Notes under the pieces: model-generated
The model's input: only the letters and a program-made list of their open reading frames with translations
The model's database searches: none
Told to the model about the DNA's origin: nothing
Assembly (NCBI GenBank): GCA_030019445.1
Contig: JASEEU010000003.1
Coordinates: 124,001 to 188,000, forward strand
Length of the DNA: 64,000 bases
Reading direction: 5' to 3'
From: Anaerosomatales bacterium
GTDB lineage: Bacteria > Actinomycetota > Coriobacteriia > Anaerosomatales > Anaerosomataceae
Position numbers and translations under genes: made by a program
Shown: positions 4,795 to 27,778 of the stretch, piece by piece
Position numbering within the stretch: the first letter of the stretch is position 1
Layout: each line of letters opens with the position of its first letter

Positions 4795-5040
4795 ATGAGC
4801 GTCAAGCTGTACGCGCTGTCGACGTGTCCCTACTGCCGCCGCACGAGGGAGTATCTGGACGACAACGACGTCTCCTATGACCTCGTTGAGGTCGATCTGC
4901 TGGAGGGGCAGGAACGGGCCGACGTGATCGCCGAGGTCAAGGAGGTATCCGGGGGGACCTCGTTCCCCGTGCTCGTCGCGGGTGAGGAGATCGTCGTAGG
5001 CTTCAACAAGAAGAAGATCAAGGAGCTGTTGGGACTGTGA
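4795..5040 (+). CDS. Glutaredoxin-family protein (CPYC)
   Basis: An 81-residue single-domain glutaredoxin with the classic dithiol active site CPYC (Cys11, Cys14) and a C-terminal GGTSFPVLVAGEEIVVGFNKKKIKELL segment, which provides the cis-proline and the glutathione-site-like GF motif. ATG 4795 has GAGGAG 5 bp upstream; a GTG at 4789 in the same frame is less likely. It overlaps the FTR/Rieske gene by 4 bp. Many glutathione-lacking anaerobes carry such NrdH/Grx-like proteins reduced by other partners. Here the FTR-type protein encoded next is the obvious candidate reductase (inference). Confidence 0.88.
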   Translation: MSVKLYALSTCPYCRRTREYLDDNDVSYDLVEVDLLEGQERADVIAEVKEVSGGTSFPVLVAGEEIVVGFNKKKIKELLGL

Positions 5041-5711
5041 GCGAGAGCGGTCCCCGTCGGCGCTTCTCGGCCGGCACGACCATCGAGGACCTCAAGGAGT
5101 ACATGGGTCCGTTCGCGGCGACCCTCGGCTACAAGTTCAATACGGACACGGAGTTCGTGGACGAGGTGCTCGAGTCGGAGATCGCGATCCTGGAACGGGA
5201 CGGCGACGTCTACTGCCCGTGTCGCATGAGGACCGGCGACCCCAAAGAGGATCTGAAGATCGTATGCCCTTGCATCCCGTTCTACCGCGATCAGTTCGCG
5301 GCCATGGACAAGTGCTGGTGCGGGCTGTTCATCAGGACGCACGTCGAGGACGGCTCGGATCTGATGGGCGTCATAGAGGAGCCGGAGCCCGGGACCCTGG
5401 TCGACGTGCCCGTCGCGCGCGCGACCGATATACCTGACGGCCAGGGACGTCATGTGAGGATCGGCCGAGTCGACATCGCCGTCTTCAACGCCGGTGGAGC
5501 GTTCTACGCCCTATCCAACCTGTGCCGCCACGCGTACGGCCCGTTGGCCGAGGGCATCGTGGACGGTCATCACGTCATGTGCCCATGGCACGGCTGGCGC
5601 TACGACGTGCGCGATGGCAGCACCGATCACCCCGATGCGGACGTGAAGACGTATCCGGTCGTCGTTCGTGACGGTGAGGTGCTCGTACGCATCGCGCTGG
5701 GCCGCCGCTGA
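5037..5711 (+). CDS. Ferredoxin:thioredoxin reductase catalytic domain fused to Rieske [2Fe-2S] domain
   Basis: A 224-residue two-domain redox protein. Residues about 15-110 carry the FTR catalytic-chain cysteine pattern: CPC (60-62), CPC (77-79) and CWC (93-95). In the family these bind a [4Fe-4S] cluster beside an active-site disulfide; the spacings here (14 and 13 residues) differ from the plant/cyanobacterial enzyme. Residues about 120-220 form a Rieske ferredoxin: Cys163-x-His165 and Cys182-x2-His185 in the CPWHGW box. There is no FTR variable chain nearby. The Rieske domain could supply electrons to the FTR site, which would then reduce the upstream glutaredoxin. Both domains are clear; the electron route is inferred. 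Confidence 0.88.
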   Translation: MSESGPRRRFSAGTTIEDLKEYMGPFAATLGYKFNTDTEFVDEVLESEIAILERDGDVYCPCRMRTGDPKEDLKIVCPCIPFYRDQFAAMDKCWCGLFIRTHVEDGSDLMGVIEEPEPGTLVDVPVARATDIPDGQGRHVRIGRVDIAVFNAGGAFYALSNLCRHAYGPLAEGIVDGHHVMCPWHGWRYDVRDGSTDHPDADVKTYPVVVRDGEVLVRIALGRR

Positions 5712-9454: not shown

Positions 9455-10135
9455 CTACTCCACTGTCACCTTGTCACCCTTGCGCAGCTCTTCCTTGGCC
9501 CACGTGCCCCAGTGATAGAGCGCGTCGGACTCGGAGACCTTGCCATCGCCGAACATGAGGCGGATGGAACCGCGGTACGGCTGGAAGACGCCGGCGCCGA
9601 GGTAGATATGCGCGAGCATCATCACGCCGAGCAGGACCATCGAGACGTCATGCACGACATACATCCACCTGGTGAGACCCACGGACAGCGCAGCCGAGTT
9701 GGCGGCGGCGATCCACAGGAACACGCCCGAGATGGAGATCAGGATCGCGAACGAGATGAGCATCCAGTCCGCAAGCGCCTGACCGGACTTGAGTTCCCTC
9801 TGTTCCGGCATGTGCTGCTTCGCACCGAAGAGCAGGTACGGCAGGAACTTCTTCATGAACTCTGCGTCCTTGCTGTCCCACTTGTAGAACATGCTGTTCC
9901 AGAAGTGCTTGAACCCCTTGGGGTTCACGACGATGGACAGGATCGGCGCGCCGATGAACACGACGGCCATCACCCGGTGGATCGTCCGAGCACCCTGGAT
10001 GGCGCCCACGCCGACGGCCTCAGCCACAGCGGGGATGAAGAGCATCAGACCCGTCACGAAGAGGGAAAGGCACGCGATCGTGTGGGCCCAGTGCAGACCA
10101 CGCGCGAACGCGCTCTGCCGCTGGATGTACCTCAC
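9455..10135 (-). CDS. fdnI: Formate dehydrogenase gamma subunit, cytochrome b556
   Basis: A 226-residue di-haem cytochrome b of the FdnI/FdoI family with about four membrane helices: LHWAHTIACLSLFVTGLMLF (about 14-34), HRVMAVVFIGAPILSIVVN (about 53-70), a helix near 115-135, and VVHDVSMVLLGVMMLAHIYLG (about 160-182). The haem-ligand histidines fall in these helices (His15, His53 and the VHD and AHIY histidines). It anchors the formate dehydrogenase to the membrane and passes electrons to menaquinone. It overlaps the beta subunit gene by 4 bp and is the last gene of the operon. Confidence 0.9.
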   Translation of the reverse strand: MRYIQRQSAFARGLHWAHTIACLSLFVTGLMLFIPAVAEAVGVGAIQGARTIHRVMAVVFIGAPILSIVVNPKGFKHFWNSMFYKWDSKDAEFMKKFLPYLLFGAKQHMPEQRELKSGQALADWMLISFAILISISGVFLWIAAANSAALSVGLTRWMYVVHDVSMVLLGVMMLAHIYLGAGVFQPYRGSIRLMFGDGKVSESDALYHWGTWAKEELRKGDKVTVE

Positions 10136-10974
10136 TGCTCCACCTCCTTCTTCTTGACCGTGTCCGTCGCCTCGTCATACTCCAGCTCGCCACGCTTGTA
10201 GCCCGTGCCCATGATGAACGACAGGCCAAGCCCACCGACGGTGGCCGCGGCGGCGATGCCGCCAAGCGGCTTGAGGAGCTGCCAGAACGAGGTCTCCGCC
10301 GGCACCTTCGGATCGCGGATGAGCCCGTGGGCCTCAAGGCCCCGGTGCGCCACGACGATGGTGTGCAGACCGCCGAGCTCGTTCTCGCCGTACGCCTCGG
10401 CGTCGGTGAAGCCAAGCTCCTTGAGCTGTGCCACCCGATCGTTGGCTTTGGCGACGATCTCGGCCCGATCGCCGAACTCGAGGGCGTCCGTCGGGCATGC
10501 GGTGACGCATGCCGGGGCACGCTCGTTCGACGTACGGTCGAAGCACTGCCAGCACTTGAACGACTTGCTGTAGTCCGTACCGCCGAGGCTCTTGGCCTGC
10601 GGGATACCGAACGGGCAGGAGTTCACGCAGTAGCGGCAGCCGATGCACTTCTCCTGGTCGATGACCACGGCGCCATTGTCCTTGTGGGAGATCGCGCCCA
10701 CGGGGCAAGCGATCTCACACGCGGCCTCGGTGCAGTGGAAGCATGCGTGCCGGGTGAAGTTCCACTCGATGCCGATCTCCTGGTCGACCTCGCGCATCTC
10801 GATGATGAGCCAGGTGTCAGGGCCGACGTTGAGCGGGCTCTGGAAGCTCTTGGTGAACTCATACTCGTCGGCCGACAGCGGCGAGGGAAGCTGGTTCCAC
10901 TGCTTGCAGGCGACCTGGCAGCCCTTGCAGCCGGTGCACTTGGAGGCGTCGTAGAGAATCGCAGTCTCTGCCAT
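10132..10974 (-). CDS. fdnH: Formate dehydrogenase beta subunit, 4x[4Fe-4S]
   Basis: A 280-residue electron-transfer subunit with four ferredoxin-type cysteine groups: CTGCKGCQVAC (about 15-25), CFHCTEAACEIAC, CIGCRYCVNSC, and CWQCFDRTSNERAPACVTAC. Together they hold four [4Fe-4S] clusters as in FdnH/HybA-type subunits. A single hydrophobic segment near residues 237-258 (GGIAAAATVGGLGLSFIMG) is the C-terminal membrane anchor. The start lies 3 bp after the alpha-subunit stop, and the end overlaps the cytochrome b gene. It links the molybdenum/tungsten active site to the quinone-reducing cytochrome. Confidence 0.93.
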   Translation of the reverse strand: MAETAILYDASKCTGCKGCQVACKQWNQLPSPLSADEYEFTKSFQSPLNVGPDTWLIIEMREVDQEIGIEWNFTRHACFHCTEAACEIACPVGAISHKDNGAVVIDQEKCIGCRYCVNSCPFGIPQAKSLGGTDYSKSFKCWQCFDRTSNERAPACVTACPTDALEFGDRAEIVAKANDRVAQLKELGFTDAEAYGENELGGLHTIVVAHRGLEAHGLIRDPKVPAETSFWQLLKPLGGIAAAATVGGLGLSFIMGTGYKRGELEYDEATDTVKKKEVEQ

Positions 10975-10977
10975 CGA

Positions 10978-13900
10978 TTACACCTCCTGCTTCCGGATAT
11001 CGACAAGGAAGGCCTTGTACTCAGGGATCCACGTGTTCGCGTCACCGACGTTCGGCGTGAGGTCGTTGGCGATGCCGCCGATCGAGCAGCTGCCCGAGTA
11101 ACCCCAGTGCCACGGCGCGTTGATCTGGTGCACCGTCTTGCCTGCGACGTCGAACGGCTTGACGCGGTCCGTCACCAGCGCGTAGGCCTGGATGGCGCCA
11201 CGCTTGTTCTCGATGACGACGTTGTCGCCGCTCACGATGCCCTTCTCCTCCGCGAGTTCCGGAGAGAGCTCCACGAACATCTTCGGCATGGTCTCGACCA
11301 GCCACGGCAGGTTGCGCGTGAGCTGACCGGTCTGCCAGTGCTCGGTGAGCCGGAAGGTCGTCATGACGAGCGGGAACTCCTCGGCGGTGCCGCGGGTCTC
11401 CGCAGCCGTCGGGACGATCGTGACGGCGGGGTTGATCTGCGTGCCGCTCATCTGGTTGTCGACCGGGCTCTCGAAGGGCTCGTAGTGCTCCGGGAACGGA
11501 CCATCAGCCATGCCGCTGGCGAAGAAGCGCGCGGCTCCCTCGGGCAGCATGATGAAGGCGACGTTGCCAGGAGGCGTCCACGTGACCGAGCCGTCCGGAT
11601 TGTCGACCTTGAAGCCGAAGTCCGGGACGTCGTTGCGCAGCCACTTCTCGCCGTCCCACTTGACGACGACCTTGTCTGCGTTCCACGGCTGACCTGCAGG
11701 GTCGGCGGCCGCACGGTTGTAGATGATCCGGCGGTTGACCGGCCAGGCGAACGACCAGCCGAGGTACGAACCGATGGGCTTGTCGAGGCCCTCGCCGGGG
11801 TTGTCCGTGTTGTCACGGGCGCCGGTGGGCTGGTCGGCGGGCTCCATCGAGTCCTCGTTGTTCCAGTAGCCGGAGTAGATCCAGTTGCCGCAGGCGGTCG
11901 AACCGTCAGCGGCGAGCTTGGTGAAGTTCTTGAGCAGCTTGCCATCTGCGACCGTGAAACCGTTGATCGCGCGAGCGGCCAGCGTCGGATCGGCGTGGCC
12001 CTCATCGTTCACGTAGTCCCACGTGAGCTTCGTGATCTGCTCGGGGTTGGCGCCGCCCTCGGCCTCGTAGAGCTCCTTGAGCTTCATGAACAGCTCGGTC
12101 GCGATCTCGAGGTCGTCCTTTGCTTCGCCAGGCGGGTCGACGGCCTTCCAGCGCCACTGGATCCAGCGACCGGAGTTGGCGATCGAACCCTGCTTCTCGT
12201 AGTGGCACGCGGCCGGAAGCATGAAGACCTCGGTCTGGATGTCGGCCGGGTTCACACCGGCGGCCTCGGTCCAGAACGCGGCGGTCTCGGTCTCCCACAG
12301 GTCGATGGCGACCATCCACTTGAGGTTCTCCATCGCCTTGCGCTCCATGCGGCAGTTCGGGCCGCCGACAGCCGGGTTCTGACCCCAGAGGAGCAGACCT
12401 TCCATGCCGCCGTCGTACATGTGCTCGAACATCGCGATGTGGCTGTGGTTCTTGCCGTTGAGCTTGGGGAGCATGTCGTACGCGTAGTCGTTCTCCAACG
12501 TGGCGTAGTCGCCGTACATCTCCTTGAGGAGCGAGATGAAGAACTTCGGCTTGTTGGTCCAGTACCCGCCGGCCGGAGTCTCGACCGTGAGGTAGTCGGC
12601 GAGCGTATCGTGCTTGCCGGCGGTCGGGGTGGCCATGTACCCGGGGATGATGTGGAACAGCATCGCCATGTCTGTGGAACCCTGCACGTTGGACTCGCCG
12701 CGGAGCGCGTTGACGCCACCGCCGGGCATGCCCATGTTGCCGAGGAGCAGCTGCAGCATAGCCATGGCGCGCACGTTCTGCGAGCCGTAGGTGTGCTGGG
12801 TCTGACCCATGGCGTGCAGGATCGTGCCGGACTTGCCCGGCTGGCCCGTCGATGCGTAGAGATCGTAGATCTCCAGCAGGCGGTCCTGCGGCATGCCGGT
12901 GATGCTCGAGACGAGATCAGGCGTGTACCGCGAATAGTGCTTCTTCATGAGCTGGAAGACACAGTTCGGGTCCTGAAGCGACTCGTCCTTGCGCGGGGTC
13001 TTCACCGTGGGGGTGGTGAAAGCGGGGGTTCCAGGAGCGTTGACCCAGGCCATCTTGCCGCCCTCGGCCGTGTCCCACTGGCTCTCGCTCTCGACCTGGT
13101 AGCCCCAGGTGTCCTTGCCATACTTGCCGGTGCTCGCATCGAAGCCGGAGAAGACTCCGTCGTCGAACGAGTAGTCCGCGGACACGATATAGGGTGCCGT
13201 CGTGTACGCCTTCACGTACTCCTCGTGATACAGGTCGTTCTCGAGGATGTAGTTGAACAGGCCGCCGTAGAAGGCGATGTCGGTACCGGAGCGAAGCGGG
13301 CCGTAGACATCGGCCACAGCAGCGCTGCGGTTGAAACGAGGATCGACCACGATGTACTTGGCGCCGGCGTTCTTGGCTTCCTGCACCCACTTCATGGAGA
13401 TGGGGTGGTTCTCGGCGTTGTTGCCGCCGATGGCCATGAGGACGTCAGCGTTCTTCAGGTCCACCCAGTGGTTCGTCATCGCGCCTCGGCCGAACGTGTT
13501 GCCCAAACCTTGGACAGTGGCGCTGTGGCATATGCGGGCCTGATGCTCGATGTAGGTCACGCCGATCGCGCGAGCCAGCTTCTGGATCAGGTAGCACTCC
13601 TCGTCATCGAGGGCAGCGCCACCGAGGTTGCCGATCGCCTCGGTGCGGTTGACGGTGACACCGTTCTCGTCGGTAGTCTCGTAGGTCGCATCGCGAGTCG
13701 CCTTGATGCGCTTGGCGATCTCGGTGATGGCCCAATCCCAATCCTTCTCCTCCCACTCGGCAGCGCCAGGTGCGCGGTACTTCACCTTGGTCTGGCGGGC
13801 GGGGTTGAGGATGAGCTTGCCAGTCTCCGGGTCGTAGACGTTCCGGATGTTGAACTGCGCCGAACCCTTGGAGCACAACGAGCCGCGGTTGATGGGATGA

Positions 13901-14130
13901 TCCGGGTCGCCTTCAAGGTTGACGAGCTCACCGTCGATCACCGAGCAGATGCCGCCGCAACCCACAGAGCAGTAGCAGCAGATCGTCGGTGACTCGGTGG
14001 CTCCCTGAATGCGGAGTTCCGGAACACTCTCAGCCGCAAGCGCGTTGGCAGGGCCAAAGACCTCGGCGAGCGCACCAGCCGCGAACGTCGCGCCGGTCAG
14101 CTTGAAAAAGCCTCGCCTGGAAAGGTTCAC
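10978..14130 (-). CDS. fdnG: Formate dehydrogenase alpha subunit, Tat-exported, Cys form
   Basis: A 1050-residue molybdopterin oxidoreductase. GTG 14130 is chosen because GGAGGT lies 4 bp upstream and it gives a short Tat signal with SRRGFFKLTG; an in-frame ATG exists at 14181. Next is the [4Fe-4S] motif CCYCSVGCGGICS with the fourth Cys in SLCSKG. At the Mo/W ligand position the sequence is ARICHSATV (Cys201), where E. coli FdnG has selenocysteine. The C-terminal molybdopterin-dinucleotide domain is complete (RLTEHWQTGQLTRN). It oxidises formate to CO2 outside the membrane after export with the beta subunit. A related Tat-exported oxidoreductase is less likely given the subunit set and fdhE. 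Confidence 0.92.
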   Translation of the reverse strand: MNLSRRGFFKLTGATFAAGALAEVFGPANALAAESVPELRIQGATESPTICCYCSVGCGGICSVIDGELVNLEGDPDHPINRGSLCSKGSAQFNIRNVYDPETGKLILNPARQTKVKYRAPGAAEWEEKDWDWAITEIAKRIKATRDATYETTDENGVTVNRTEAIGNLGGAALDDEECYLIQKLARAIGVTYIEHQARICHSATVQGLGNTFGRGAMTNHWVDLKNADVLMAIGGNNAENHPISMKWVQEAKNAGAKYIVVDPRFNRSAAVADVYGPLRSGTDIAFYGGLFNYILENDLYHEEYVKAYTTAPYIVSADYSFDDGVFSGFDASTGKYGKDTWGYQVESESQWDTAEGGKMAWVNAPGTPAFTTPTVKTPRKDESLQDPNCVFQLMKKHYSRYTPDLVSSITGMPQDRLLEIYDLYASTGQPGKSGTILHAMGQTQHTYGSQNVRAMAMLQLLLGNMGMPGGGVNALRGESNVQGSTDMAMLFHIIPGYMATPTAGKHDTLADYLTVETPAGGYWTNKPKFFISLLKEMYGDYATLENDYAYDMLPKLNGKNHSHIAMFEHMYDGGMEGLLLWGQNPAVGGPNCRMERKAMENLKWMVAIDLWETETAAFWTEAAGVNPADIQTEVFMLPAACHYEKQGSIANSGRWIQWRWKAVDPPGEAKDDLEIATELFMKLKELYEAEGGANPEQITKLTWDYVNDEGHADPTLAARAINGFTVADGKLLKNFTKLAADGSTACGNWIYSGYWNNEDSMEPADQPTGARDNTDNPGEGLDKPIGSYLGWSFAWPVNRRIIYNRAAADPAGQPWNADKVVVKWDGEKWLRNDVPDFGFKVDNPDGSVTWTPPGNVAFIMLPEGAARFFASGMADGPFPEHYEPFESPVDNQMSGTQINPAVTIVPTAAETRGTAEEFPLVMTTFRLTEHWQTGQLTRNLPWLVETMPKMFVELSPELAEEKGIVSGDNVVIENKRGAIQAYALVTDRVKPFDVAGKTVHQINAPWHWGYSGSCSIGGIANDLTPNVGDANTWIPEYKAFLVDIRKQEV

Positions 14131-14160
14131 CCTTACCTCCTTCACAGGAAATCGCGCTTC

Positions 14161-14180
14161 TGCCGGTCGAATGACCGGCA
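14161..14180 (-). promoter_or_regulatory. Inverted repeat in the formate dehydrogenase leader
   Basis: TGCCGGTC (14161-14168), gaat, GACCGGCA (14173-14180) is a perfect 8-bp inverted repeat ending 31 bp before the chosen GTG start of the alpha subunit. It could be an operator or an RNA hairpin in the leader. It also spans the alternative upstream ATG at 14181, which argues against that start. Confidence 0.45.
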
Positions 14181-14517
14181 CTGTCAGGTGCGCGCTGTCA
14201 GATCACCGTCCTTTCCGCACGCGTGCGGGCGCGGGCTGTCGCCTGCGAACGTTCTTCCGGGCATTCGCAGGGCCAAGCCTTGGCGCAGGCGGACAGGGAA
14301 CACCCCCGGTCGTCTTCAGACGCGGGGACGGGGGGCAATAGAGAGACCGAGCGACGGGTGCGCGCCATGACCGGCCGGTCGTAGCTGCTCCGCCGCGGCG
14401 CTTTCGAGCCTATGCTTCGGTGCGTGGAGAATGCCGGTTCTCTCACGTCTACCCCCTTACAGGTACCGAGCCTAACACACACCCCAGGGCCGTGTGTAGG
14501 GGCACTCGGAGGACTTT

Positions 14518-19971: not shown

Positions 19972-21279
19972 TCAGCTGACAGCACGATCGATCGCCCGGG
20001 CCGCCTTATCGGCTGCCCGGGCGATCTTCGTGTCAAGGCCGGCGGTCCTGAATGCGATCTCTCCGTCCACCACGCGCCAGATGCCGGCGGAGATCACGGA
20101 CCGGACGGCGTTACGGCCGCCGTCTGCGATCAGCGCTCCGAGCGGGTCGTCGGTGACGCCGACCTCGCTCACGACGACATCGGCGTAGGCGCCCTCGGCC
20201 AGCGTCCCGAAACGCTCCCCGAGGCCGAGCACGTGCGCACCATGCTCGGTAAGCATCAGGATGAGGTCGCGATCGGTGAGGGCCGGGTCGAGTTCGCGCA
20301 GCGCCCGTGCTTCGTTGAAGACGTCGAGGTCGGCATTGGAGGCGAGCGAGTCGGTGCCGATGGCGAGCCGTGCTCCGGCGAGCCGCAGCGCCTCGACGTC
20401 CGCATCGCCGTTGTGGAGGAAGCGATTCGACCGGGGGCACAGCACGACGCCGGCGGCCGAGCGAGCGAGCAGCTGAGGGCTGCCGTCTTCAAGGTGCACG
20501 CAGTGCACCGCGATCATGCCGTCGAGCGCGCCGAGGCGGGCCACGTAGTGGACCGCATCGTGTCCGGGCGGGCGGAATCCTCGAGCGAGCTTCTCGGCCA
20601 GGCCCACAAGCGGACCCGTGCCGGAGGAGAGCAGCTCCGCCTCGGCAGGGGACTCGGCGAGATGCATGGCGAACGGCACGCCGTGCCGACGCGCGAGCTC
20701 GGCCACCCCGGTGATGAGCCCGGGGCCCGCGGTGTAGGGCGCGTGCGGGCTCAGCCCGCACCTGGTCCGGCCCACGCACTGGGTGCCGGGATCGTCGGGA
20801 TAGTCGTGGTCGGCGAGGTGCGCGGAGAGGTCCGCACCGTCGAGGCCCAGGGCCTCCCAGAAGAAGGCGCCCCCGAGCCCGATGTCTCCCGCTGCAGCCG
20901 GCGACTCGGGACCGTAGGCGACGTCACCGACGACGGTCACGCCGCAGCGGAGGCACTCTACCGCCCCGGCGCTGACCGCCACTTCGAGGTCGTCAGCGTC
21001 CATCGAGCGCGTGGCCCGGGCGACGCGCGACAACCACTCGGGGAAGGGCGCCGGGGGGATGAGGCCGCTGAGCGCGGTCAGACAGAGGTGTGTGTGGGCG
21101 TTCACGAAACCGGGCGTCACGATGCACCCGGGATGGTCCCGGACGATCTCGCGCGGCCGCTGCCGGAGCATCTCGGCGCGGGTCCCTACCGCGACGATCC
21201 GTGCTCCGTTGATGAGAACGGCGCCGTTGGGGACCAGGCGGGCGCCGGGCGCGAGGAGCCAGTCGCCCGCGATGATCAT
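19972..21279 (-). CDS. Amidohydrolase, adenosine-deaminase-like (aminodeoxyfutalosine or methylthioadenosine deaminase candidate)
   Basis: A 435-residue amidohydrolase-superfamily enzyme of the MtaD/TrzA/SsnA group. Metal-site motifs are visible: NAHTHL (the HxH pair), the His in HAPYTAGP, HCVHL, and the catalytic Asp in GTDSLASN. The start ATG 21279 overlaps the upstream phosphorylase stop (ATGA). Family members deaminate adenosine-type nucleosides. The mqn genes just upstream suggest aminodeoxyfutalosine deaminase, a known step of the futalosine pathway. Pairing with an MTA-phosphorylase-like gene equally suggests 5'-methylthioadenosine or S-adenosylhomocysteine deamination. The sequence does not decide between them. 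Confidence 0.75.
   Translation of the reverse strand: MIIAGDWLLAPGARLVPNGAVLINGARIVAVGTRAEMLRQRPREIVRDHPGCIVTPGFVNAHTHLCLTALSGLIPPAPFPEWLSRVARATRSMDADDLEVAVSAGAVECLRCGVTVVGDVAYGPESPAAAGDIGLGGAFFWEALGLDGADLSAHLADHDYPDDPGTQCVGRTRCGLSPHAPYTAGPGLITGVAELARRHGVPFAMHLAESPAEAELLSSGTGPLVGLAEKLARGFRPPGHDAVHYVARLGALDGMIAVHCVHLEDGSPQLLARSAAGVVLCPRSNRFLHNGDADVEALRLAGARLAIGTDSLASNADLDVFNEARALRELDPALTDRDLILMLTEHGAHVLGLGERFGTLAEGAYADVVVSEVGVTDDPLGALIADGGRNAVRSVISAGIWRVVDGEIAFRTAGLDTKIARAADKAARAIDRAVS
19990..20026 (+). terminator. 12-bp perfect hairpin downstream of livF, inside the opposing gene's 3' end
   Basis: GATCGCCCGGGC (19990-20001) pairs perfectly with GCCCGGGCGATC (20015-20026), followed by TTCGTG. 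It starts 22 bp after the livF stop but lies within the last 20 codons of the minus-strand amidohydrolase. It can end the liv operon transcript while also encoding the C-terminal ARAADKAARA-like tail of the other gene. Confidence 0.6.
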
Positions 21280-22127
21280 GCGTCGCCCTCGGGCAGGTCG
21301 AGGAGGCTCGGTTTGCGGAGCTCGGCGCACCCGCACGCGGCGTGCAGGTCAGACTCCGCGATGACGTCGAGCACGCAACGGGCGATCGTCTCGGCCTCAT
21401 CGAAGAAGATCGCCTTGAGCTCCTCGTGCTCCCACTCCCGGACGACGCCCTCGGCGTAGTTCACGACCATGTAGATGCCGGCGTAGCATGCGCCGATGTC
21501 GCGTGCGAGGACGACTTCCGGTGCGAGCGACTGGCCGATGACGTCACCGCCGAGGCGCCGCATGTAGTCGACCTCGGACACGGTCTCGAACCGAGGGCCG
21601 TCAGTCACGAGGTAGACGCCGCGCCGGAAGATCCGGCTGAAGTGCGGGCTCGCGGCCAGGTAGAGGTGGCGCGCAAGGTCAGGGCAGATCGGCTGTCGCA
21701 TGATGAGCAGGTGATCGCCGCGGACGTAGATGTCCTGGCGCATGGTGAGGTCGATGAAGTCGTGAGGGATCACGACGTCGCGCGGGTCCAGCAGCGCGTT
21801 CAGGCTCCCGACTCCGCCATCGGCGAGCACCTTCTTCACACCGGCCTGGTGGAACACCCAGAAGGTCTGCAGGCTGGCGTCAGCGCGCTTGATGCCTCTG
21901 CGCCAGCCGTGCATCTTGACCGCGAGGGCGTGGCGGATGCCGTCAGGCCCCTCGACGCTGAAGTGCGTGAACGCGGGGGAGCGGCCGAAGGGCGTGTCGA
22001 AGACGAGACGGTCGGCGATGACGGTGACGCGTGCGTCGGCGAGACCGGCGGGAAACGCGAGTGAGAGCGTGCCTGAACCGCCGCACACGCCGAACTCGGC
22101 TCTGGGGACCGTCGTGCTCTTGGGCAT
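21276..22127 (-). CDS. MTAP/PNP-family nucleoside phosphorylase
   Basis: A 283-residue purine-nucleoside-phosphorylase-fold enzyme of the methylthioadenosine phosphorylase subfamily. Motifs: GVCGGSGTLSL (phosphate-binding start), DFIDLTMR, VYLVTDGPRFETVSEVDYMRRLGGDVIGQSLAPEVVLARD. ATG 22127 with GGAG 4 bp upstream is used; the in-frame ATG at 22196 would add a tail that the family does not have. It splits a 5'-modified nucleoside with phosphate. Coupled to a deaminase, it may act on methylthioinosine, or it may supply the nucleosidase step of futalosine metabolism. Which one is not decided by sequence. Confidence 0.8.
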   Translation of the reverse strand: MPKSTTVPRAEFGVCGGSGTLSLAFPAGLADARVTVIADRLVFDTPFGRSPAFTHFSVEGPDGIRHALAVKMHGWRRGIKRADASLQTFWVFHQAGVKKVLADGGVGSLNALLDPRDVVIPHDFIDLTMRQDIYVRGDHLLIMRQPICPDLARHLYLAASPHFSRIFRRGVYLVTDGPRFETVSEVDYMRRLGGDVIGQSLAPEVVLARDIGACYAGIYMVVNYAEGVVREWEHEELKAIFFDEAETIARCVLDVIAESDLHAACGCAELRKPSLLDLPEGDA

Positions 22128-22223: not shown

Positions 22224-23498
22224 CTAGCGCTGCATCGCGAGCATCTCGCGCGTTCGCCTCCAGGCGAGCGGGATGCCGCCGACGATCCACCAGTAGAGCG
22301 CGTAGGTGAGTCGCTTCATCACGATGGCGGGGAGACCGGTCAGGTGCCATCGCAGCGCCCAGCCGACTCCCCAGCTGGGGCCGATGCTCACGAACTCCCC
22401 GTGCATGTGCGGGTGGAAGGGCTCGGGCGGCTCGCCGCGTGCCTCGCGCAGGATGCTCTCGGCAAGGTGCTCGGCCTCGCGGATCGCGAACTGAGCGAGC
22501 ATGGGGAGCGTACGGTTGTCGGCGGGGTCGCGGAACGCGGCGACGTCGCCGACCGCGTAGACATCGTCGTGACCGGGGACCTTGAGATCGGGTCCAGAGA
22601 CGAGCCTGCCGGACGGGTCGGCCTCAAGACCCCAGCCGATGGCATCGGGGTCGGCCTTGGCGCCGCCGCAGAACACGAGGACCGGCGCGTCGATGACGCT
22701 GCCGTCCGCGAGCTTGAGCAGACCGTCTTCCACGGCGCTCACCATCGAGCCGAGGCGGAGCTCGACACTGAGCCGAGCGAGGCGGCGCTTGGCCTTTTCG
22801 CGCAGCGACTGCGGGAGGTCGTAGAGGATGTCCGGACGACCCTCGACCAGCACGACCCTGAGGTCGGCGGGATCGAGTCCGAAGCTGCGCATCCGCTTGG
22901 GGAGCATCTGGCCGAGCGTCCCCACGATCTCGATGCCGGTCGCGCCTCCGCCGACCACGACGAACGTGAGCGCCCTGCGCCGCGACGCGGCGTCGGGGAG
23001 GCGGGCGGCGATGCGGAACTGCGCCTCGATGCGCCGCTGGAGCTCCTGCGCGTCGGCGACCGACCACATCGTGACCGCGTGCTCGGCGAGACCCGGCACG
23101 GGCGGCACGAACGCGATCGCCCCCGTTGCGATCACGAGTCGCCAGTAGCCGACCTCGCGCTTCTCGCCGTCCCTCGGCCCGACGAGCACCACGTGCTCCT
23201 TGGCACGCACGTCGTCGACCCGGTCGTAGCAGACGGTCACCGGCAGGTCCTTGAAGACGGTCGGGTGCCACAGTTCGCAGAATTCGGGGCGGGGAGGGCC
23301 GACGGCGACGAGGTCGAGCTCTGACAGCGCCTGCTGGCAGGGGTTCGGCTCGATCAGCATGATCTCGAGGTCGTCATCGGGGCGCATCGCCTTCGCGAGT
23401 TTCACGGCGAGCGTCGTACCGGCGTATCCGCCGCCGGCGATGACCACCCGGCGGCCGGCGCCTTCGGTCGCGCACCCCGTGTTCAGGCCAGCATCCAT
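22224..23498 (-). CDS. NAD(P)H dehydrogenase-like FAD flavoprotein (type II NADH dehydrogenase family)
   Basis: A 424-residue pyridine-nucleotide-disulfide oxidoreductase family flavoprotein. The N-terminal FAD dinucleotide fold is VVIAGGGYAGTTLA (about 18-31). The NADH fold is VVVGGGATGIEIVGTLGQML (about 176-195). A C-terminal FAD contact is DDVYAVGDVAAF. The last 45 residues (RWHLTGLPAIVMKRLTYALYWW) look like the amphipathic membrane-binding tail of NDH-2 enzymes. It likely passes electrons from NADH to menaquinone without pumping. It sits directly after three menaquinone-synthesis genes on the same strand, 61 bp from mqnC. Confidence 0.82.
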   Translation of the reverse strand: MDAGLNTGCATEGAGRRVVIAGGGYAGTTLAVKLAKAMRPDDDLEIMLIEPNPCQQALSELDLVAVGPPRPEFCELWHPTVFKDLPVTVCYDRVDDVRAKEHVVLVGPRDGEKREVGYWRLVIATGAIAFVPPVPGLAEHAVTMWSVADAQELQRRIEAQFRIAARLPDAASRRRALTFVVVGGGATGIEIVGTLGQMLPKRMRSFGLDPADLRVVLVEGRPDILYDLPQSLREKAKRRLARLSVELRLGSMVSAVEDGLLKLADGSVIDAPVLVFCGGAKADPDAIGWGLEADPSGRLVSGPDLKVPGHDDVYAVGDVAAFRDPADNRTLPMLAQFAIREAEHLAESILREARGEPPEPFHPHMHGEFVSIGPSWGVGWALRWHLTGLPAIVMKRLTYALYWWIVGGIPLAWRRTREMLAMQR

Positions 23499-23559: not shown

Positions 23560-24675
23560 CTAGAAACGCCTGACTTCCCGGTACAGGGTATCGCGCTGCA
23601 CGGGCGTGAATCCGGCGTCCCTGATGAGGCGTACGAGCTCCTCCCGGGCAAGCATGAACCGCGTGCCTGCCGAGGCGACAACGTTCTCCTCGATCATGGT
23701 CGAACCCATGTCGTTCGCCCCGAAGCACAGCGCGACCTGACCCACCTTGGGCCCCTGCGTGACCCACGAGGCCTGGATGTTCGTGACGTTGTCGAGGAAC
23801 AGGCGCGAGACAGCGAGCGTGCGCAGGTATTCCCACCCGCTAGCCGCCTGGCCGGCGAACTCGCCCTCGGCAAGCTCCGTGTTGCCCGGCTGGAAGCTCC
23901 AGGGGATGAACGCCCGGAAGCCCACGGCGTCCTTCTCGGCGGCCTCGTCCTGCACCTCGCGGATGCGCATCATGTGCGCCACGCGGTCCTGCACGCTTTC
24001 GGTGCCGCCGAACATCATCGTCGCGGTCGTGGAGATGCCGAGGTCGTGCGCCTCGCGCATCACATCGAGCCACTGGTCGCTCGTCGCCTTGCGGGGCGAC
24101 ACGTGCGCGCGCACGCGGTCCACGAGGATCTCCGCGCCGCCGCCGGGCAGCGAGTCGAGACCCGCGTCGCGCAGGCGGGCGAGAACCTCGCGCGTGCTGA
24201 TGCCCGAGACGCGCGCGATGTGCACCATCTCCGGCGGGCCGAAGCCGTGCACGTGGATGGGGAATCGCTCCTTGAGCGCGCGCAGCATCTGCTCGTACCA
24301 CTCGATGCCGAGGTCGGGGTGCAGGCCGCCCTGCAGCAGGATGGCGGTGCCCTCGAGCGCGAGCGTCTCCTCCACTTTGGCGTAGAGCTCGTCGGGCGCG
24401 AGGACGTAGGCATCGGCGTCGTGGGCGTCGCGGTAGAAGGCGCAGAAGCGGCAGCCGCTCACGCAGACGTTCGTGTAGTTGACGTTGCGGTCCACGATGA
24501 ACCTGATCTCACGCTCCGGGTGCAGCCGGTCGCGCATCGCGGTGGCGGCGGCGCCCAGCTGCAGGATATCGGCGCCTTCGAGCAGCACGAGCGCGTCTTC
24601 TGCCGAGAGGCGATGCTCGCCGCTCGCGGCAGCGAACGCGAGCTCTGCCGACTCCTTGCGCTCGCGTTCGCTCAT
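23560..24675 (-). CDS. mqnC: Cyclic dehypoxanthine futalosine synthase MqnC (radical SAM)
   Basis: A 371-residue radical SAM enzyme. The cluster motif CVSGCRFCAF (CxxxCxxC, about residues 70-80) follows NYTNV. MqnC-type features are ILLQGGLHPDLGIEWY, HGFGPPEMVH, LPGGGAEILVDRVR and the C-terminal FGANDMGSTMIEENVV. It cyclises dehypoxanthine futalosine in the futalosine route to menaquinone. The start overlaps the mqnA stop by 4 bp. It is told apart from the neighbouring paralogue mqnE by these C-terminal motifs. Confidence 0.92.
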   Translation of the reverse strand: MSERERKESAELAFAAASGEHRLSAEDALVLLEGADILQLGAAATAMRDRLHPEREIRFIVDRNVNYTNVCVSGCRFCAFYRDAHDADAYVLAPDELYAKVEETLALEGTAILLQGGLHPDLGIEWYEQMLRALKERFPIHVHGFGPPEMVHIARVSGISTREVLARLRDAGLDSLPGGGAEILVDRVRAHVSPRKATSDQWLDVMREAHDLGISTTATMMFGGTESVQDRVAHMMRIREVQDEAAEKDAVGFRAFIPWSFQPGNTELAEGEFAGQAASGWEYLRTLAVSRLFLDNVTNIQASWVTQGPKVGQVALCFGANDMGSTMIEENVVASAGTRFMLAREELVRLIRDAGFTPVQRDTLYREVRRF

Positions 24676-25502
24676 TCGCCGAACACCTCGATGGCGGGCA
24701 CGCGCTCGAGCTGGCCGATCGCGGCGGCCTCGGCAAGATAGCGCGCGAGGCCGTCACGGTACGCCGGCTCGAAGCGGAACTGCAGGGCGTCGAAGTAGCT
24801 GCGGAACTTCTCGGCGGGGAACTGCTCCCAGCGCGCCGCGTACGCGCTGATGTCGTCCAGATGCGCGCGGCAGTAGGCGAGCGAGCCGGACAGCGCCTCG
24901 GACACCGCCTGCACGGCGGCGGGGTCGTTCTCGGCGTACGCACGACGCACCGCCCAGACGGCGTAGACCATCGGCAGGCCGGTCCAAGCGGTCCACACAG
25001 TGCCGAGGTCGTAGGCGTGCAGCCCCTCGGGCTGGTCCCAGTACGCGCGCAGGGCCTCGTCGCCGATGAGCAGCGCGGCGTCGGCGTCGCGCAGCATCGC
25101 CGGGAGGTCGGGCGGCATCTCGACGTAGCCGGGCCTCGCGCGCCAGCGCTTGTCGATCAGGATGCGTGCGAGCACCTGCGAAGTGCGTGAAGTGTCGGTG
25201 AGCGCGACGGTGCGGCCGGAGAGCTCCTCGGCAGCCACCTTCGAGACGAGCAGGATGGATTGCACCTCGCCGTTGGAGGAGATCGCGATGTCCGGCAGGA
25301 GGACGAGGTCGTCGGCGTGGCGCGCGTACTCGATGGCGGGGACCGGCGCCATATCGAGCGTGCCGTCCAGAAGCTCGCGCGCGAGGTCGGCGGGATTCGC
25401 CCGCACGAGGTCCACGTCGAGGAGCACGTCGTTCTTCACCATGCCGTAGTAGAGCGGAAGGCAGTTGAGGAACTGGATATGGCCGAGCCTCGGGCGGGCC
25501 AT
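24672..25502 (-). CDS. mqnA: Chorismate dehydratase MqnA
   Basis: A 276-residue MqnA/MqnD-fold protein. It opens RLGHIQFLNCLPLYYG, the MqnA signature, and has ISSNGEVQSILLVSK, TSRTSQVLARILI and LLIGDEAL. It converts chorismate to 3-enolpyruvylbenzoate, the first committed step of the futalosine menaquinone pathway. It lies between mqnE (3-bp gap) and mqnC (4-bp overlap), which confirms the pathway. mqnD is not in the window. Confidence 0.93.
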   Translation of the reverse strand: MARPRLGHIQFLNCLPLYYGMVKNDVLLDVDLVRANPADLARELLDGTLDMAPVPAIEYARHADDLVLLPDIAISSNGEVQSILLVSKVAAEELSGRTVALTDTSRTSQVLARILIDKRWRARPGYVEMPPDLPAMLRDADAALLIGDEALRAYWDQPEGLHAYDLGTVWTAWTGLPMVYAVWAVRRAYAENDPAAVQAVSEALSGSLAYCRAHLDDISAYAARWEQFPAEKFRSYFDALQFRFEPAYRDGLARYLAEAAAIGQLERVPAIEVFGE

Positions 25503-25505
25503 ACG

Positions 25506-26612
25506 CTACTCCCCGTAGACGCGCACGACGTTGTAGAGCGTGTCGCGCTCCACGGCCACGTGGCCGGTCTCCTCGATCATCGCCACGAGGTCCTCCTTGG
25601 AGAGGGCTTCGGGCGTCGTCGCGCCTGCCATGTGCGTGATGCGCTCCTCGACGACGGTCCCGTCGAGGTCGTCCACGCCGAAGGCGGTCGAGAGCTGCGC
25701 GACCTTCAGCCCCAGCATGATCCAGAACGCCTTGATGTGCGGGATGTTGTCGAGCATGAGGCGACCGATGGCGAGCGTCTTGAGGTCATCGAAGCCCGTG
25801 GTAGCGGGCAGGTCCGCGAGCTCCGTGTTGGCGGGATGGAACGCGAGCGGGATGAACGCCAGGAAGCCGCCGCTCGCATCCTGCTGTTCGCGCAGCCGGA
25901 TCATGTGATCGACGCGCTCCTCGACCGTCTCGATGTGGCCATACAGCATGGTGCAGTTGGTGGCGATGCCGAGCGCGTGTGCCTCGCCGTGGATGCGCAG
26001 CCACACATCGCTCGACGTCTTCTTGTCCCACGCGGCGGCGCGCGTCCTGTCCGAGAAGATCTCGGCCCCGCCGCCGGGCAGCGCGTCGAGCCCGGCCTCC
26101 TTGAGGTCGGCGAGCACCTCGCGTGTGGTCTTGCCGCTGATGATCGCCATGTGCTCGATCTCCACGGCGGTGAACGCCTGCACGATGACGTGCTTGGGGG
26201 CGACCTCGCGGACCTTGCGCACCATGTCGACGTAGAACTCGTAGCTCCACTCCGGATGCAGGCCGCTCACGATGTGGATCTCGTACGCGCCGTCGGCGAC
26301 GCCTTCGCGCGTTGCCTCGACGATCGCATCCAGCGTCATCTCGTACGCGCCCTCTTCGCCCTCGCTGCGGGCGAACGCGCAGAACTTGCAGCGGTTGCGG
26401 CAGATGTTGGTGGGGTTGATGTGGCGATTCACCATGAAGTGCACGCGGTCGCCGTTCGTGGCGCGCCGCACGCGATCGGCCATCTGCGCGATGCCGAGAA
26501 GGTCGTTGCTCCGGTAGAGCGTCACTCCGTCCTCGCGGGTGAGGCGCTCGCCGGCCAGTACCTTCTCGGCGATGGGCTCCAGCGCGGGGTCGATGAGGTG
26601 GAATGGGTGCAT
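25506..26612 (-). CDS. mqnE: Aminofutalosine synthase MqnE (radical SAM)
   Basis: A 368-residue radical SAM enzyme. The motif is CRNRCKFCAF (CxxxCxxC) after INPTNI, then SGLHPEWSYEFYVDM, VQAFTAVEIEHMA, LPGGGAEIFSDRTR and ERITHMAGA. It adds an adenosyl radical to 3-enolpyruvylbenzoate to give aminofutalosine. ATG 26612 (MHPFHLIDP) is used; the frame is open upstream but encodes low-complexity sequence in the divergent promoter region. It is the first gene of the minus-strand menaquinone operon. Confidence 0.92.
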   Translation of the reverse strand: MHPFHLIDPALEPIAEKVLAGERLTREDGVTLYRSNDLLGIAQMADRVRRATNGDRVHFMVNRHINPTNICRNRCKFCAFARSEGEEGAYEMTLDAIVEATREGVADGAYEIHIVSGLHPEWSYEFYVDMVRKVREVAPKHVIVQAFTAVEIEHMAIISGKTTREVLADLKEAGLDALPGGGAEIFSDRTRAAAWDKKTSSDVWLRIHGEAHALGIATNCTMLYGHIETVEERVDHMIRLREQQDASGGFLAFIPLAFHPANTELADLPATTGFDDLKTLAIGRLMLDNIPHIKAFWIMLGLKVAQLSTAFGVDDLDGTVVEERITHMAGATTPEALSKEDLVAMIEETGHVAVERDTLYNVVRVYGE

Positions 26613-26632
26613 GATGTGGCTCCTGTCGGACG

Positions 26633-26652
26633 GGATGCCTCCTCGGGCATCC
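26633..26652 (-). promoter_or_regulatory. Inverted repeat just upstream of mqnE
   Basis: GGATGCC (26633-26639), a 6-nt spacer, and GGCATCC (26646-26652) form a perfect 7-bp repeat 20 bp before the mqnE start, extendable by a G-T and a C-G pair. It would form a hairpin in the mRNA leader or serve as an operator in the 194-bp divergent gap. Function unknown. Confidence 0.35.
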
Positions 26653-26806
26653 TGCGAGATTCTACCACCGGTCAGCGCCGACGAGACCGCGGTGTCGACC
26701 GTCGATGCCGGGCAGGTCGCGCCGCCCACGGCGTCCTGCCACGCGTCTCGGGGTATGAAGAACCCTGACAGTCCGGCGGCCGTCACGGCCGATGACGGAG
26801 GGAGCG

Positions 26807-27778
26807 ATGATGCGCAAGCTACGCGCGGGCGTGCTCGTGCTCGTGGTGGTCCTGGCGCTCGTCCTCGGAGGATGCGCGAACGGTGAGGACGGGTCACCGG
26901 ACGGCGACGGGACGGAAGCGAAGGGCCCCGTCTCGGTCGGCTCCAAGATCGACACAGAGGGTGGCGTCCTGGGGCAGATCATGATCGCGGTGCTCGAGGA
27001 CGACGGCTTCGAGGTCGTCGACAAGACGAAGACCGGGACCACCGAGGTCGTGCGCGCCGCGCTGACCTCGGGGGAGATCGATATGTACCCCGAATACACG
27101 GGTACGGCCATCACGCAGTTCTTCCCGGGTGAGGACATCGACCCGTCGGTGACCAAGGACGCGGACGCGTGCTACGACACCGTCAAGGAGCTCGACGCCG
27201 AGCTCAACGACATCGTCTGGCTCGATCGCTCCTCGGCCAACAACACGTGGGCCATCGCGATCCCGCGCTCGCTCGCCGAGGCCGAGGGGATAGCGACGCT
27301 CGCTGACTGGGCGGCGTACATCAACGACGGCGGCGAGGTGAAGCTCGTGGGTTCGCAGGAGTTCGTCGACCGCGAGGATGCCCTGCCCGCGTTCGAGCAG
27401 GCGTACGGCTTCGATCTCACCGACGAGCAGCTCATCATCTTGTCGGGTGGAGACACGGCGCAGACCGAGGCCGCTGCGGCGCAGGGCACCAACGGCGCCA
27501 ACGCCGCGATGGCGTACGGCACCGACGGCAGCCTTGCCGCGCTCGACCTCGTCGTCCTCGACGACCCGATGGGCGTGCAGCCGGTCTACCAGCCGGCGCC
27601 CACGGTGCGCGCCGAGGTCATGGATGCCTACCCGGAGATCGCTGACCTGCTCGGCCCGGTGTTCGCCGCGCTCGACCTCGAGACGCTGCAGGACCTCAAC
27701 GGCAAGGTCGCGGTGGAGGGCCAGGATCCTGCGTCGGTCGCGACCGACTGGCTGAGAGCGGAAGGGTTCATCGAGTAG
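26807..27778 (+). CDS. opuCC: Osmoprotectant ABC transporter substrate-binding lipoprotein
   Basis: A 323-residue OpuAC/OsmF-type binding protein for glycine betaine, choline or carnitine. The signal peptide ends in LGGC (lipobox, about residue 24). The mature part starts PVSVGSKIDTEGGVLGQIMIAVLEDDG and has MYPEYTGTAI, typical of this class. GGAGG at 26797-26801 supports ATG 26807 (or 26810). It is first in a four-gene operon with two permeases and an ATPase. Exact substrate not readable. Confidence 0.87.
   Translation: MMRKLRAGVLVLVVVLALVLGGCANGEDGSPDGDGTEAKGPVSVGSKIDTEGGVLGQIMIAVLEDDGFEVVDKTKTGTTEVVRAALTSGEIDMYPEYTGTAITQFFPGEDIDPSVTKDADACYDTVKELDAELNDIVWLDRSSANNTWAIAIPRSLAEAEGIATLADWAAYINDGGEVKLVGSQEFVDREDALPAFEQAYGFDLTDEQLIILSGGDTAQTEAAAAQGTNGANAAMAYGTDGSLAALDLVVLDDPMGVQPVYQPAPTVRAEVMDAYPEIADLLGPVFAALDLETLQDLNGKVAVEGQDPASVATDWLRAEGFIE

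Follow-up and report, generated by a model that had tools for sequence, protein, structure and literature searches.

The stretch considered here, hereafter the window, comprises 64,000 nucleotides from the genome of an Anaerosomatales bacterium (GCA_030019445.1, contig JASEEU010000003.1, positions 124,001 to 188,000), an assembly of 2.09 Mb with a completeness of 97.6%. Its minus strand carries genes of the futalosine pathway of menaquinone synthesis, transcribed in the order mqnE, mqnA, mqnC, an oxidoreductase gene (Pyr_redox_2), an mqnZ-like gene and a deaminase gene, and the last two are the subject of this report. The six genes are as follows:

25506..26897, minus strand: mqnE, aminofutalosine synthase (TIGR03700, 503 bits over residues 108-457, above cut-off)
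24672..25502, minus strand: mqnA, chorismate dehydratase, the sole PF02621 gene found in the genome
23560..24675, minus strand: mqnC, cyclic dehypoxanthinyl futalosine synthase (TIGR03699, 487 bits, above cut-off)
22224..23498, minus strand: NDH-2-type FAD/NAD(P) oxidoreductase (Pyr_redox_2, PF07992), lying between mqnC and mqnZ in the lineage of the window
21276..22127, minus strand: mqnZ-like gene of MTAP/PNP fold, predicted futalosine-type nucleoside hydrolase (PF01048, 106 bits, cut-off 25.1)
19972..21279, minus strand: deaminase-type amidohydrolase, predicted aminofutalosine deaminase (PF01979, 142 bits)

An ATGA overlap joins the last two genes, in agreement with the first-pass annotation of this DNA, which had described a deaminase and an MTAP-family gene as translationally coupled downstream of futalosine genes. 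The preferred start of the mqnZ-like gene is an ATG at 22127 with an AGGAG-like site ahead of it, and that of the deaminase an ATG at 21279, its open frame extending to a GTG at 21336. In mqnE, the stretch covered by the TIGR03700 model starts near 26576.

The substrate of MqnC is dehypoxanthine futalosine, as stated in the part of PMC8210684 that bears on this enzyme, and aminofutalosine is normally converted to it either by MqnB together with a deaminase or by MTAN acting by itself, according to a section of PMC3937554. The first-pass annotation had recognised that a deaminase and a nucleosidase were needed to fill this gap; it overlooked both the absence of MqnD and the identity of the phosphorylase-like gene with a previously predicted one. 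In the passages of Ravcheev and Thiele (2016; PMC4746308) devoted to it, mqnZ is a PF01048 gene that neighbours mqnC/E or mqnEAC in 12 genomes and was not seen together with mqnD; it was predicted to replace MqnD, and the same passages state that its own sequence gave this prediction no support. Like the window gene, the mqnZ genes of Mitsuokella, Megamonas, Selenomonas, Syntrophomonas, Pelotomaculum and Thermosinus are PF01048 genes next to mqnE, mqnA or mqnC in genomes without mqnD. Relatives of the window protein were retrieved from named genomes, and since the best 80 of 411 such stretches (56-81% identity) include Selenomonas, Syntrophomonas and Pelotomaculum, we assign the window gene to the mqnZ family. 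No experimental work on MqnZ was found in a full-text literature search, which left most subscription journals outside its reach.

As far as profiles and the assembly tell, MqnB and MqnD are both missing from the genome. It encodes three PF01048 proteins, namely a PNP beside adenosylhomocysteinase, a true MTAP (302.5 bits) and MqnZ, of which the PNP and the MTAP pass their NCBIfam cut-offs. A search of the genome with TIGR03664, the MqnB/MTAN-type profile, gave no match; in a control, the same profile matched in 10 of 14 genomes, two of them above cut-off. The first-pass annotation had suggested that the gene pair may belong to the futalosine route, and a place in the aminofutalosine part of menaquinone synthesis is upheld, as far as the sequence tells, by the lack of any detectable MqnB or MTAN elsewhere in so complete an assembly. 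The PF02621 profile, which covers both MqnA and MqnD, recovered a single gene, the mqnA of the window, whose product scores 221 bits by blastp against MqnA of a control genome versus 28 bits against its MqnD.

The same double absence extends to relatives. In 61 family- and order-level genomes, the present one among them, each of the 36 with any PF02621 match has exactly one and no second, MqnD-type copy, and MqnB above the TIGR03664 cut-off occurs in none of the 61. We then considered 396 Actinomycetota genomes, calling MqnZ with a dedicated profile (A1, E<=1e-40) and PF02621 at E<=1e-8, and counting any TIGR03664 match at E<=1e-5. MqnZ was present in 30 genomes and PF02621 in 76, including all 30 with MqnZ. 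PF02621 occurs once in 28 of these 30, the other two showing a pair of fragmentary matches to separate regions of the profile, whereas 37 of the 46 PF02621 genomes without MqnZ carry at least two copies (Fisher p 1.7e-13; this and the other p values are raw and uncorrected for kinship). TIGR03664 matches are absent from all 30 genomes with MqnZ and present in 33 of the 46 without it (20 above cut-off; Fisher p 3.9e-11). Similarly, a check of 21 named Firmicutes genomes with MqnZ revealed no second PF02621 protein at MqnD strength: 19 have one match, Syntrophomonas zehnderi has one and a stray match of 39 bits, and no match was found in Paenibacillus xerothermodurans. None of the 21 reaches the TIGR03664 cut-off and 16 are without any match to it. 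What is new here is thus that genomes with mqnZ lack MqnD and, for the most part, MqnB/MTAN as well. A hidden MqnD was considered and rejected, given that the PF02621 search finds none in the own genome and one match in each relative with any, that 37 of the 46 control genomes do show two or more copies, and that BLAST separates MqnA from MqnD.

The distribution of mqnZ follows that of mqnC. An MqnZ ortholog (70-81% identity) was found in 36 of the 61 family and order genomes; mqnC scores above cut-off in 35, of which 34 encode MqnZ, compared with 2 of the 26 others (Fisher p = 1.3e-13), so that the pairing is not due to chance. The lone mqnC genome without mqnZ (G049) has a contig that seems to stop short of the syntenic place, judging from a single 1-kb match. 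The two genomes with mqnZ and no full mqnC are 86-88% complete; in one (G026) mqnZ lies on a 4.2-kb contig, and the other (G058) has a truncated piece of mqnC at a contig edge. The deaminase ortholog (at least 42% identity) accompanies MqnZ in 35 of 36 genomes, against 3 of the 25 others. Four of the deaminase matches and, in two further genomes, the mqnZ matches contain one in-frame stop each, which may reflect errors of the draft assemblies or broken genes.

Gene order tells much the same, operon counts being based on the window proteins as queries. mqnZ has mqnE-A-C as neighbours in 48 of the 80 named loci, in 11 of the 20 at phylum level and in 7 of the 14 mqnZ loci at order level, and in the latter two sets the deaminase adjoins mqnZ in 10 and in all 14 loci, respectively; the complete order mqnE-A-C-Z-deaminase is seen again in other classes and phyla. 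Of the 14 order-level loci, four have the Pyr_redox_2 gene next to mqnZ and one more has it farther away, at a contig end. Apart from the families of radical SAM proteins, MqnA and MqnZ, none that might be a candidate MqnD recurs in more than 18 of the 80 named loci, in a clustering that itself caught MqnZ in 73 of 80 only. UbiA-, UbiD- and UbiX-like families and the deaminase family appear in 12 of 80 loci each, their names being read from protein starts. In five named loci, mostly of the Selenomonas type, mqnC and mqnZ are accompanied by two mqnE-like genes of the radical SAM family, and in three of these mqnA was not found within the locus.

MqnZ resembles MTAP and trimeric PNP by both sequence and fold. 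Its best NCBIfam match is TIGR01694 (MTAP), at 122 bits, under the cut-off of 274.85, and it falls under the cut-offs for MTAP, MTIP and PNP alike, as do three Firmicutes relatives; to TIGR03664 it has no match at E<=0.001. An AlphaFold2 model built from 47 sequences (pLDDT 87.4, pTM 0.88) has as its top Foldseek match the methylthioinosine phosphorylase of P. aeruginosa with hypoxanthine (3ozb, E 3.2e-20). Re-examination of the matches with VIA-align gave Z scores of 26.9 for 4glf, 26.5 for 3t94 and 25.2 for 3ozb, gaps below 1 being ties, with MTAPs among the best fold matches. MqnZ thus shares its fold with MTAP and 3ozb and, in contrast to them, falls under the NCBIfam cut-offs and has lost the phosphate-site residues described below. 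With MqnB and MTAN it shares the PF01048 superfamily and the proposed hydrolysis of the N-glycosidic bond of futalosine.

The active site was read from an alignment of 137 rows, 124 of them distinct once repeats were merged (30 of the 36 order-level orthologs, 26 other phylum-level sequences and the best 80 of 411 from named genomes). Human MTAP residues, whose active-site roles, including those of R60 and T93 in phosphate binding, are given in the relevant portion of PMC5738077, were mapped by aligning MqnZ with solved chains (five displayed) and with the MTAP and PNP of this genome. At the phosphate site, R60 is replaced by Met in 117 and Leu in 7 of the 124 distinct proteins and T93 by Gly in 117 and Ala in 7, the residue preceding the latter being Glu in 90 and Asp in 34; the MTAP of the same genome keeps Arg at R60 and has Asn at T93. 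The H61 position is His and the A94 position Gly in all 124, M196 is Gln in all 124, and T197 is Ser in 121 and Thr in 3. At the base site, the S178 position is Glu (E181 in MqnZ) and the D220 position Asn (N223) in 124 of 124, as in PNP, the genome's own PNP having the same two letters. We take this Glu and Asn pair to be the signature of 6-oxopurine enzymes (PNP, MTIP), as opposed to the Ser and Asp of MTAP, and such a base site fits a deaminated substrate. An invariant carboxylate at the phosphate place, together with the loss of the Arg and of the Thr or Asn, is what would be expected of a hydrolase. With the phosphate-site residues replaced and the base site of Glu and Asn type, hydrolysis of a hypoxanthine nucleoside appears likelier than phosphorolysis. 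The phosphorolytic futalosine route, which the first-pass annotation had put forward, is accordingly not retained as the preferred reading. Candidate residues for binding the carboxyphenyl moiety of the substrate are Arg144 and Trp232 (124 of 124) and Trp75 and Arg76 (122 of 124). A Cys-x-Cys near the C-terminus (residues 265-267) is invariant in all 124 proteins and present in the genome's own MTAP too.

The closest solved relative of the deaminase is DR_0824 (2imr, E 1e-34), followed by 4dyk, 4gbd and 4m51/3v7p, the last of which is presumably Nis_0429. In work by Goble and colleagues from 2013, DR_0824 and Nis_0429, both of the amidohydrolase type, reportedly deaminate 6-aminodeoxyfutalosine. 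The window protein differs from these two in scoring under the cut-off of NF006269 (137 versus 320 bits) and in having MqnZ instead of MqnB as its partner. A second amidohydrolase, about 31-36% identical, is encoded by 57 of the 61 relatives with or without mqn genes, which marks the mqn-linked copy as the special one.

Taken together, these data lead us to a reading to which we give a probability of about 0.6, namely that the deaminase and MqnZ complete a version of the futalosine pathway that runs without MqnB and MqnD, MqnZ acting as a hydrolase that replaces MqnB and most likely makes MqnD unnecessary. MqnA and MqnE would yield aminofutalosine, which the amidohydrolase would deaminate to futalosine, and MqnZ would then release hypoxanthine from a futalosine-type nucleoside hydrolytically rather than phosphorolytically. 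Since MqnD is missing in every MqnZ genome examined, MqnZ most likely covers the MqnD step or removes the need for it. The MqnD step presumably depends on an unblocked C1' hydroxyl, through which the sugar ring opens ahead of retro-aldol cleavage. We tentatively propose, at somewhat less than an even chance, that depurination comes late and that a single phosphorylase turned hydrolase replaces both MqnB and MqnD. MqnC would in that case cyclise intact futalosine, and MqnZ would cut hypoxanthine off the cyclic nucleoside; through the freed C1' hydroxyl the sugar would open and leave by retro-aldol cleavage, in the MqnZ site or spontaneously, releasing the naphthoate. By reordering the steps in this manner, the need for both missing enzymes would disappear. 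In a close variant, a bifunctional MqnZ would act before and after MqnC.

Several observations weigh against a pathway without MqnB and MqnD that depends on this gene pair. Although every MqnZ aligned has the 6-oxopurine-type site, a deaminase adjoins mqnZ in no more than 12 of the 80 named loci, where no search was made for unlinked ones, and 7lkj, a structure named aminofutalosine deaminase, is, at E 1.3e-14, a far weaker match to the window deaminase than DR_0824. Deaminase orthologs of 44-50% identity exist without mqnC or mqnZ in three relatives, where they may be either remnants of a lost operon or proteins with a second role; the same NDH-2-like gene as in the window adjoins the ortholog in one of these loci (L053) and is near it in another (L055). 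Sub-cut-off, MTAN-like TIGR03664 matches occur in two MqnZ genomes of the 61 and in 5 of the 21 Firmicutes, and nine of the 46 Actinomycetota with PF02621 and no MqnZ have a single copy. Eight genomes of the phylum sample have two PF02621 copies, no TIGR03664 match and no MqnZ; MqnB therefore seems replaceable in other ways, and another nucleosidase may serve in those genomes. MqnZ thus tracks the loss of MqnD more strictly than that of MqnB.

MqnC itself gives no sign of a changed substrate, which also counts on this side. Between 80 rows (75 distinct) from MqnZ loci and 21 rows from genomes without MqnZ, no column separates the groups (at least 90% one residue versus at most 10%), save one that is filled in a single row per group; the first group includes the locus of G049, where mqnZ was not found, and the second a genome with a single PF02621 copy. 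In MqnE, one conservative F/Y column differs (78 rows versus 14). The MqnC sequences therefore do not help the proposal of late depurination, or may even count against it. On a quick, unrooted MqnC tree of a thinned set (74 of 101 rows), rows with and without MqnZ are interleaved, with 5 label changes, of which at least 2 are forced by well supported branches, against a shuffled mean of 18.4, suggesting that the switch between MqnZ and MqnD probably took place more than once; the two were never seen together in the genomes examined.

This likeness of MqnC across lineages, which makes a common substrate possible, is the starting point for supposing that MqnZ replaces MqnB only, converting futalosine to dehypoxanthine futalosine ahead of MqnC, with an unrelated and unlinked enzyme taking the place of MqnD. 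The base site typical of a hypoxanthine nucleoside enzyme and the lack of TIGR03664 matches in all 30 MqnZ genomes would fit as well. However, MqnD is unseen in any MqnZ genome examined despite about 5 label changes on the MqnC tree, and the operon holds no recurrent gene that might be a second replacement, so that we regard this explanation as unlikely, albeit a serious competitor. The reverse proposal, published by Ravcheev and Thiele (2016) and set out in a part of PMC4746308, has MqnZ replacing MqnD alone, acting on the base-free cyclic product of MqnC while another nucleosidase or a general PNP, such as the one encoded in this genome, removes the base. The strictest association of MqnZ is indeed with MqnD absence, and two positions conserved across the MTAP and PNP proteins that the corresponding portion of PMC5738077 compares, M196 and A94, hold Gln and Gly in MqnZ. 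The Glu and Asn of purine type, kept in 124 of 124 proteins, are nevertheless hard to explain for a base-free substrate, and MqnB/MTAN is mostly absent as well. A role restricted to the MqnD step appears improbable to us. The lost phosphate site and the translationally coupled deaminase are further points in which the present case departs from the published description.

As its alternative, the first-pass annotation had offered a salvage role, in which methylthioadenosine or 5'-deoxyadenosine would be deaminated and then phosphorolysed; Pseudomonas has such a route, through methylthioinosine. The MqnZ fold is closest to that of a methylthioinosine phosphorylase, the deaminase matches models of methylthioadenosine/S-adenosylhomocysteine and 5'-deoxyadenosine deaminases (all under their cut-offs), and its ortholog persists without mqnC in the three relatives mentioned. 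Yet a true MTAP is encoded elsewhere in the genome and MqnZ presence follows mqnC, which together make salvage unlikely; the second amidohydrolase of most relatives and the altered phosphate site of MqnZ speak against it too, and we hold it to be very improbable. A related idea, suggested in a passage of PMC6302742, is that a methylthioinosine phosphorylase with promiscuous activity might function in the futalosine pathway as well.

Elsewhere in the window, positions 5037-5711 encode a ferredoxin-thioredoxin reductase beta-type domain fused with a Rieske domain, and positions 9455-14181 hold a formate-dehydrogenase-like cluster with a cytochrome b561-type subunit (PF01292), its other parts being named from translations. 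Formate-dehydrogenase-like enzymes with a b561-type subunit usually use quinone. In the part of PMC9686372 that concerns them, no quinones were detected in two cultivated Anaerosomatales isolates, whose order may be that of the window.

An annotation scheme in which mqnB and mqnD are obligatory would score MqnZ lineages as lacking a full futalosine pathway; Sporomusa, Selenomonas, Syntrophomonas, Pelotomaculum and Heliorestis, a heliobacterium, are represented in the best 80 of 411 MqnZ relatives. The ten-year-old prediction of mqnZ can now be put to a direct test with purified proteins. Should MqnZ perform both functions, one enzyme would replace two unrelated steps, and a phosphorylase would have been turned into a hydrolase through the loss of its phosphate site.

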